A stretch of 27,887 bases of DNA, taken from positions 1-27,887 of the forward strand of contig MNYV01000023.1 in NCBI GenBank assembly GCA_001873285.1, given 5' to 3'. Positions 166 to 24,784 of this stretch are shown here, piece by piece. A program made the position numbers and the translations under genes. Below the pieces are notes generated by a model that had not been told where the DNA came from, did not search any database, and worked only from the letters and a program-made list of their open reading frames with translations. Source of the DNA: Nitrospirae bacterium CG2_30_53_67. Lineage in GTDB: Bacteria; CG2-30-53-67. Within the stretch, counting starts at the first letter, position 1. Each line of letters starts with the position of its first letter.

Positions 166-186
166 GCCCTGCTACATACCGTCCTG

Positions 187-214
187 CCGGCCCCGCGAAG
201 CCATGCGAGGCCGG
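187..214 (+). terminator. GC-rich hairpin after rho (possible terminator)
   Basis: A strong inverted repeat lies 22 bases after the rho stop: CCGGCC (187-192) pairs with GGCCGG (209-214), and CGC (194-196) pairs with GCG (205-207) inside it, with one mismatch between. No T-tract follows on either strand, so it is not a textbook intrinsic terminator. It could still end or stabilise rho mRNA, or serve both converging units. The rest of 166-290 shows nothing else recognisable. Confidence 0.35.
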
Positions 215-290
215 TCGAGTAAATAAACTGAACCAACGAGGACTGATAACCAACCTCAGAGCAGATTCAGATTTTTGTATTTCTGCTATT

Positions 291-818
291 TCACCTCTCC
301 GAAGCATTCCATCGGTCTGCTGGAATGTATGGAATCAATCCTTTTTCAAATGCAATCACTTGTACTTCTCGATGCATGTTGCGGATGTCAACCATCATGT
401 CATTGACTTGCAATATCCAAATCAAAGGGTTGTCGTCTACTCGGCTTTGCAAACACCAGTTTGGATCAAGTTGATACATTTTCAGCAGGTCGCGAATAAA
501 TTTCGCCTTATTTGCTCCGCTACTTTGACTAACGCCAAACGCGGCGCATAACTCATCTGCCCGCATGTGTGGCGTCTGTGATTTATCAAAGAAAAAATTG
601 ACTGTACCGAGAGCGTAGAGAATAGCGCATGCCCAAATTTCTGGTTTCCCCCCTGTGATAGGAGAAGGTCGTTTGCGGGCAAGAGTGGCTGCCAAACGAC
701 GAGCGAGCATTGCATATTCGCTATTCAGGTGTTGATTGCAAACAGCTTCTATCAAATTGATGATCGCCAAATAAACAGGCTCAACGGCCCGCTTGAGGTG
801 CGCACGGTGCGTCAGCAC
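291..818 (-). CDS. DUF6398-like protein, 5' end replaced by an attC site
   Basis: The frame encodes up to 175 residues. From about residue 20 it resembles a family I know as DUF6398: an EAVCNQHLN-EY segment, LARKRPSP, PEIWACAILYALGTVNF, then SQTPHMRADELCAAFGVSQ, which looks like a helix-turn-helix, and a DPNWCL segment. Function of the family is unknown. The start is the odd part. The only upstream start in frame is a GTG at 818, inside the attC site at 779-848, so the first dozen residues would be encoded by attC. The next start is a TTG at 770. No good ribosome-binding site precedes either. The native 5' end therefore looks replaced by recombination and the gene may be weakly expressed or dead. 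It lies downstream of the 73-residue gene in the same orientation. No second attC is visible after its stop. GC content appears lower than in the dcw genes. Confidence 0.7.
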   Translation of the reverse strand: MLTHRAHLKRAVEPVYLAIINLIEAVCNQHLNSEYAMLARRLAATLARKRPSPITGGKPEIWACAILYALGTVNFFFDKSQTPHMRADELCAAFGVSQSSGANKAKFIRDLLKMYQLDPNWCLQSRVDDNPLIWILQVNDMMVDIRNMHREVQVIAFEKGLIPYIPADRWNASER

Positions 819-848
819 CGCGCGTCGCTCTCGAAGCGGTTGTTATGC
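779..848 (-). other. Integron-type attC recombination site
   Basis: Read on the minus strand, the 70 bases begin with GCATAAC (848-842; consensus RYYYAAC, one mismatch) and end with GTTGAGC (785-779), a perfect GTTRRRY core site. Inside, CCGCTTCGAG pairs with CTCAAGCGG, leaving one unpaired C: the extrahelical base that marks the bottom-strand hairpin recognised by integron integrases. The centre, GGTGC-TGAC-GCACC, closes the hairpin. Length, order of boxes and the single extrahelical base all match attC. The site starts 2 bases after the TAA of the 73-residue gene, the usual cassette geometry. No integrase gene is in the window. Confidence 0.8.
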
Positions 849-849
849 G

Positions 850-1071
850 TTACCGGGAAACGGCTACCGGCTGGAGAGAAAATACGCGCGCGAGCTTTGC
901 GGCGGCCGCGATATCGCCGCGTCTCAATGCATCGCGCACATCGTCAAGCTTGTATGCGTCCTCTACCGACAAGTACGGAGACCATTCCGTTTCATCTTCG
1001 AGAAGCTCGACATCCACCTCGGCAACGTACTTGCCTTCGTGCACAAATTTGACTCTATGGCGCTTACTCAT
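850..1071 (-). CDS. Small unknown protein, integron cassette-type gene (73 aa)
   Basis: An ATG at 1071 is preceded by GAGG six bases upstream, a good ribosome-binding site. The 73-residue product is acidic in its first half (VDVELLEDETEW) and ends in an Arg/Ala-rich part (DVRDALRRGDIAAAAKLARVF). No signal peptide or membrane segment is seen. I recall similar short proteins beginning with an HEGKYVAEV-type segment as conserved hypotheticals, possibly antitoxin-like, but cannot assign a function. The stop codon abuts the attC site at 779-848, so gene plus attC form a typical mobile gene cassette. A candidate promoter lies far upstream at 1302-1330. Confidence 0.75.
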   Translation of the reverse strand: MSKRHRVKFVHEGKYVAEVDVELLEDETEWSPYLSVEDAYKLDDVRDALRRGDIAAAAKLARVFSLQPVAVSR

Positions 1072-1301
1072 CTTTGCCTCTTCGCTTGGTAAAGGTCCCG
1101 TCCCATCGTTCGGGATCGGGGCGATATGCGGTTACAACTACTGCCGGAAAAGTGAACCCCTTCTAGAAAAATAGGGACAGCGACCATTATTTTCCTTCTC
1201 GTGGCCTACCTCTCAGCTTTGCCATAAGGGGACGAAAATAGGTACATCGTCCATTAAGCAGTCTTCCACTTTTCTTGCTCTTTTGCCACCGTTAAGCGTT
1301 A

Positions 1302-23840: not shown

Positions 23841-24784
23841 GGCTGTCCCTCTATCTTCTCTGCCGCCCTGAGCCTCGCGCTTCGAGCCCACGGGTTGCCT
23901 TTAACCTCTTGCGGTGAAGGGAAGAGCGGCTTTTTGGTCATCCGTCTGAGGACGGGTAATTTCCCGCAGGCACAAACAGGCATATCAGGAGGACAGGTAC
24001 ACCCCTTCTCCAGTTCACGGAAGAACTGTTTGACGATCCTGTCCTCGAGGGAATGGAAGGAGATCACACAGAGGCGGCCTCCTGACTTGAGAATCTTCAC
24101 GGCAGCCTCGATCCCTTTTCGCAGGGCATTCAACTCATCATTGACCGCGATCCGCAGGGCCTGGAAGGTCCGAGTGGCGGGATGGATCCTATATCGCCTT
24201 GCGCCGGGAAGGGCTTTTTCAATCAAGCCTGCAAGTTCTCTCGTGGTACGGATCGGACCTTTCTCTCTTGCCTTCAGGATGGCGCCTGCCACCGGCCGCC
24301 ATCTCTTCTCTTCCCCGTATTCCACAAGGATCTTCCGAAGTTCATCGATCCCTGCGCCATTCACAAGATCATAGGCCGTAGGGACCGGCTCTTCAGGGTT
24401 CATCCGCATATCGAGCGGGCCGTCCAGCATAAAGCTGAACCCGCGCAAGGGAGTAGCAACCTGAATCATGGAAACTCCCAGGTCCATCAAAACACCGTCC
24501 ACTGAATCGAATCCGGCCTCCCGTATGAGCCTGCAAAGATCTCGGAAATTCCCCTGCATGACCCGTACCCTGTTTCTGAAAGGGCTGAGCCTCTCCGAAG
24601 CCCGTGCAACGGCCTCGGGGTCCCGGTCGATTCCGATGACCATCCCATCCGGGGAGGATTTCTTGAGCATGATTTCGGCATGGCCGCCGTCCCCGAGGGT
24701 TGAGTCCACGTAGAGACCGCCCGGCCTGATATTCAGCATGGATAAAGACTCTTCCCGCATGACCGGTCTGTGTTTTTTCTGCAT
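23837..24784 (-). CDS. rsmH: 16S rRNA m4C1402 methyltransferase
   Basis: RsmH (MraW) methylates N4 of C1402 in the 30S decoding site with SAM. The 315-residue product has HRPVMREESLSML at the start, SAM-binding motif I YVDSTLGDGGHAEIML (25-40), VIGIDRDPEAV, VDGVLMDLGVS, RGFSFMLDGPLDMRM, HPATRTFQALRIAVNDELNAL and VISFHSLEDRIVKQFF near residue 245, then the C-terminal CTCPPD and CACGK segments. The usual DLGVSSPQ reads DLGVSMIQ here; otherwise ordinary. ATG 24784 has AAGG 10-11 bases upstream. It follows the STAS gene across 102 bases that contain a hairpin and a short repeat, and overlaps ftsL by four bases. Confidence 0.97.
   Translation of the reverse strand: MQKKHRPVMREESLSMLNIRPGGLYVDSTLGDGGHAEIMLKKSSPDGMVIGIDRDPEAVARASERLSPFRNRVRVMQGNFRDLCRLIREAGFDSVDGVLMDLGVSMIQVATPLRGFSFMLDGPLDMRMNPEEPVPTAYDLVNGAGIDELRKILVEYGEEKRWRPVAGAILKAREKGPIRTTRELAGLIEKALPGARRYRIHPATRTFQALRIAVNDELNALRKGIEAAVKILKSGGRLCVISFHSLEDRIVKQFFRELEKGCTCPPDMPVCACGKLPVLRRMTKKPLFPSPQEVKGNPWARSARLRAAEKIEGQP

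Follow-up and report, generated by a model that had tools for sequence, protein, structure and literature searches.

How did a gene cassette of integron type come to lie beside rho in the genome of Nitrospirae bacterium CG2_30_53_67, and is it really one? An initial annotation of contig MNYV01000023.1, the 27,887 nucleotides of which are referred to here as the window, placed an attC-bounded cassette at positions 779 to 1071, without an integrase, and proposed that it had either been inserted at a secondary site or was the remains of an old array. Conservation of this stretch in the relatives compared was looked for and not found. In four of the genomes compared (G002 to G005), rho and the DUF167 gene are directly adjacent and no such insert is present, whereas in the window the two genes are about 1.3 kb apart. 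The features of this gap are collected in Table 1.

Table 1. Features of the window from the end of rho to the DUF167 gene (positions refer to the window)
Feature	Positions	Strand	Basis
rho, 3' end	1-164	plus	54 C-terminal codons; protein 100% identical to rho of G001
GC-rich hairpin after rho	~186-215		read in sequence
DUF6398 gene without native start	291-785	minus	PF19935, E 2.8e-42; homology from attC crossover codon GTT
attC site	779-848	minus	covariance model R1, 36.1 bits; boxes read in sequence; cassette DNA homology ending at R' core
73-aa cassette gene, second of the DUF4258 pair	850-1071	minus	relatives at 84-99% amino acid identity
DUF4258 toxin-like gene, 3' fragment (~32 codons), 5' part missing	1064-1163	minus	frame KGFTFPAVVVTAYRPDPERWDGTFTKRRGKDE followed by stop; homology edge
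REP-like repeat, GGGACAGCGACCATT type	1164-1260		abuts truncation point; 10 further contigs of the genome carry short similar copies
DUF167/YggU gene, far side of the cassette-bearing gap	1455-1748	minus	PF02594, E 3.6e-26

The core and L boxes described for the site were all recovered. Read on the minus strand, the R'' core GCATAAC at 848-842 has one mismatch to RYYYAAC and the R' core GTTGAGC at 785-779 matches GTTRRRY perfectly, and between them lie L'' (CCGCTTCGAG), a central hairpin and L' (CTCAAGCGG) in this order. The L boxes pair over 9 positions with an indel, and a scanner with a milder gap penalty detects the site. A single extrahelical base, the C of top-strand L'', remained unpaired in the fold and would give recombination its strand polarity. 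Crossover would be expected between G785 and T784. The stop codon of the 73-aa open reading frame (850-852) is one base away from R'', with the attC beginning at 848 in the same orientation, as had been described. The strong central hairpin of the initial annotation held in part: the bottom strand does fold, with −21 kcal/mol (DNA parameters), and its z-score of −2.4 against dinucleotide shuffles shows that the fold by itself departs only moderately from expectation. Much stronger evidence came from a covariance model. This home-built model was seeded with nine other attCs, the window site being left out: three from class-1 resistance cassettes (aadA1, aadB, catB3) and six environmental ones, among them a site on contig C20 of the same genome, one of the same-genus genome G001 and that of locus L096. 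The window site obtained a high score, 36.1 bits, corresponding to E 6.9e-7 over 150 kb and E 1.1e-5 over the 2.36-Mb genome. Pairs across 19 model matches covary far above slid controls, in an alignment that was itself fitted to the model. On its boxes and its score, the stretch at 779-848 is a real attC site. The same model found no second attC in the 27.9-kb window, and an Rfam scan of the window gave zero matches. A core-and-hairpin look-alike at 24604-24705, picked up by a home-made scanner, had no covariance-model match and is probably due to chance; four other places matching TAACNANCGCNTCNAG (L013 to L016) lacked the partner half of an attC.

Public genomes yielded 134 stretches with a relative of the 73-aa protein, and 80 of these were kept. 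The closest come from metagenome-assembled genomes of Betaproteobacteria, Muproteobacteria, other Proteobacteria and Nitrospirae. Neither Pfam nor NCBIfam has a match to the protein itself. In all seven closest loci (L054 to L060) the end of an upstream gene overlaps the 73-aa gene, and in both intact examples scanned with Pfam this upstream gene is DUF4258 (PF14076). DUF4258 is listed among the toxin families of the RelE/ParE superfamily (BECR fold) in a table of PMC11980606 that gives no function for it, and the product of the 73-aa gene is likely to be an antitoxin.

Aligned with these seven loci, the window DNA has a sharp homology edge at 1162/1163. At the other end, homology stops at the R' core in L060 (779), L056 (780), L058 (782) and L055 (784), each of which then continues into unrelated DNA. 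In L059, where the site is degenerate, the limit is at 787, and in L054 and L057, which have no recognisable attC, at 851 and 837. A discrete mobile unit with its edge at G/TT is thus found in unrelated hosts (L055, L056, L058 and L060). By the model, an attC starts 4-20 nt 3' of the stop of the 73-aa gene in nine of the 80 loci (L058, L060, L062, L090, L096, L100, L101, L114 and L118), and the attC following the gene in L056 was read by eye. L054 encodes a 99%-identical protein and has no recognisable attC after it, so the 73-aa gene also occurs without attC. The cassettes of L055 and L056 start at the cores GTTATGC and GTTAGGC, some 370 bases before the 73-aa gene, and GTTAAGC is found at the corresponding start in L060. 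The window cassette has no second GTTRRRY core at its left end and is cut at 1163; with DUF4258 reduced to its last ~32 codons at the REP-like repeat, it is therefore truncated. On this comparison, 779-1163 is a 5'-truncated copy of a two-gene (DUF4258-73aa) mobile cassette. The extent of 779-1071 given by the annotation had to be enlarged accordingly, because a piece of the second gene is attached, and its one-gene cassette gives way to the two-gene unit of the homologous loci.

A literature search on DUF4258 with integron yielded no report of a DUF4258-73aa cassette. The pair resembles the toxin-antitoxin cassettes of chromosomal integrons in joining the toxin-like DUF4258 to a small second gene within attC cassettes; it differs in that no family model covers the 73-aa partner and the window copy of the toxin-like gene is broken. 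An intI above cut-off was present in seven of the 12 genomes in which the 73-aa gene has a close relative or one followed by an attC. In a Methylacidiphilum isolate (L101, 3222-3281) a 67%-identical relative is followed by an attC of 49.2 bits, and the genome of the isolate yielded no intI.

The absence of an integrase was confirmed for the surroundings of the cassette and not for the genome. In this 2.36-Mb draft of 183 contigs, with 0.96% estimated contamination, a profile search found a full-length intI at C20:2238-3182, scoring 485.7 bits against a cut-off of 265, and the motifs of tyrosine recombinases are visible in its translation. The attC of this locus is at C20:101-160, and between the two lie the genes of an EcoRV-like endonuclease (PF09233, 8.8e-118) and a D12 adenine methyltransferase, which make up the visible cassette content (L007, 101-2126). 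Both are oriented with intI and not divergent from it, a layout also seen in G001. The genome-wide search for further attCs that the annotation had suggested was also positive: the model found about seven sites on six contigs besides C20 and the window (C146, C3, C96, C125, C40 and C58), nearly all directly after an open reading frame, with two in a row on C125. Some are near contig ends, and per-genome E values are as high as 0.009 and 0.05 for the weakest two, on C40 and C58, so that the number of real attCs is uncertain. Judged from translations only, the C96 site follows a BrnT/BrnA-like pair and the C58 site a RelB/ParE-like pair. On C146 (L164, 19751-20632), 26 residues matching the C-terminal end of intI are found ~0.7 kb from the attC and may be what is left of a second integron. 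In other members of the class, intI is full-length in G001, G003 and G004 and partial in G006. The window itself does not hold a complete integron, intI being on C20 and none beside the cassette.

The DNA on the other side of the R' core belongs to the DUF6398 gene, the N-terminus of which is missing. In eight DUF6398 homologues from other bacteria the coding sequence continues further upstream than in the window. Most of them have a VPxxM segment, the last residue of which aligns to the crossover codon, and in the window the attC stands in place of the residues before this codon. The gene appears, from this alignment, to be broken at the attC crossover, which would place the right junction of the cassette inside DUF6398 coding sequence; the left junction has been lost. 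At its own end DUF6398 stops beside the rho hairpin, and the model scan found no attC between the two genes. That DUF6398 might be an old gene of the lineage was rejected, as it is absent from G001 to G007 and therefore itself accessory. None of its relatives was found in phage and viral collections.

We consider it probable that 779-1163 is an integron cassette that was inserted by IntI at an attG-type, that is non-classical or secondary, site in the 5' end of DUF6398 and that later lost its left end. DUF6398, located between rho and DUF167, would then have been the target rather than a neighbouring cassette. The likely enzyme would be the genome's own IntI, joining the folded bottom strand of the attC, at G/TT of R', to a GTT-like site, although the integrase of another element could have acted instead of the one on C20. 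Later, the left end of the cassette would have been lost at the REP-like repeat, together with most of DUF4258 and the displaced start of DUF6398, so that normal excision of the unit as a circle would have become impossible. Since this expected left half, the displaced start with a second GTTRRRY core, is absent from the window, the reciprocal junction is not demonstrable. The repeat was also seen within ~1 kb of attC sites on C20, C40, C58 and C146. It may promote cassette decay, or may simply share variable regions with the cassettes.

Alternatively, the locus would be the relic of an old array (CALIN) at rho, in which DUF6398 was the cassette next to the 73-aa one and all else, including an attC after DUF6398, has decayed. 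DUF6398 does come immediately after the R' core and has the same orientation, as would be expected of the next cassette, and both the cassette at rho in G001 and the two consecutive attCs on C125 are in keeping with an array. However, the window has a single attC, DUF6398 ends by the rho hairpin without one, and its coding homology extends as far as the core site and includes no start codon, which is not how a normal cassette is built. An old array is therefore unlikely: a DUF6398 that has neither its native start nor its own attC favours attG-type insertion, and of the two origins that the annotation had offered, the secondary site has become the better supported and the old array has been weakened.

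Two further readings concern the reality of the arrangement and of the site. In a draft of so many contigs with some estimated contamination, and in a window that starts inside rho at a contig end, the cassette might not truly be beside rho at all, its position being a product of contamination or misassembly of the metagenome bin. We rejected this as very improbable, given that rho and DUF167, neighbours in G002 to G005, flank the insert on one contig, that the rho tail is identical in protein to that of the same-genus genome and that G001 independently has a cassette after rho. A chance hairpin or an intrinsic terminator of the 73-aa gene might also resemble an attC, both attC-like hairpins and terminators being GC-rich stems after a stop codon, and the modest folding z-score would suit it. 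It is hardly credible, and was likewise rejected, in view of the genome-wide E value of a site outside the seed, the attCs after the same gene in other phyla, the end of the cassette DNA homology at the recombination point and the G001 site beside rho, which scores too.

G001, the nearest relative, carries a different cassette beside rho in the same gap and orientation, in which a ParE/RHH toxin-antitoxin pair is accompanied by a lower-scoring attC (28.2 bits). From the attC core onward it has the same 11-base junction as the window, GTTGAGCCTGT, after which the sequences diverge. Within this junction GTT is invariant, GAGC is one among 16 possible core variants and CTGT one among 256 possibilities, leaving just four bases beyond the core consensus; having been noticed afterwards, the match is therefore suggestive only. 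The rho contig of G001 stops short of DUF167, which lies on a different contig, and the whole gap is thus not seen in that genome. A Fic-domain protein is encoded near the toxin-antitoxin cassette downstream of G001 rho (L047, 4849-5979). The common junction lends support to a wider proposal, which we put forward tentatively and with some doubt: the gap after rho may be a lasting docking place, where one attG insertion in an ancestor of the genus left an attC at which IntI has since swapped toxin-antitoxin cassettes (DUF4258-73aa here, ParE/RHH in G001), lone cassettes then being standing single-slot arrays.

Insertion of cassettes at attG sites has been published (Loot et al. 2024, Nat Microbiol 9:228, as cited in PMC11023631, PMC12444791 and PMC12901181). 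The window shares with these cases a single attC cassette outside an integron, a genome with intI and a junction at the G/TT core; it differs in being a natural case from an uncultured lineage, and with its left end decayed, the two junctions are not both available for comparison with experimental attG sites. With CALINs it shares an attC without neighbouring integrase, but they consist of at least two clustered attCs and the 27.9-kb window has one. IntegronFinder 2.0 by default needs at least two attCs, and single ones can be real, as stated in PMC9024848. The CALINs described from Xanthomonas in PMC12444791 sit at fixed loci, with cassettes recurring at one chromosomal position across related genomes; these are clusters of at least two attCs, whereas here single cassettes with different genes lie beside rho in two species. 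The rho-side cassette is a fresh example of an already known phenomenon, cassettes outside integrons.

Stray cassettes dropped by an IntI encoded elsewhere are a known route of gene spread, which is apparently met here in an uncultured bacterium. With one full intI and single attC cassettes at a number of unlinked loci, the genome looks like a natural attG case; several of these lone cassettes carry toxin-antitoxin pairs, and one apparently lies inside another gene beside rho. Default searches requiring two attCs would report few of such lone sites. If cassettes are indeed swapped at lone sites, the reach of the integron would be extended to the whole chromosome.
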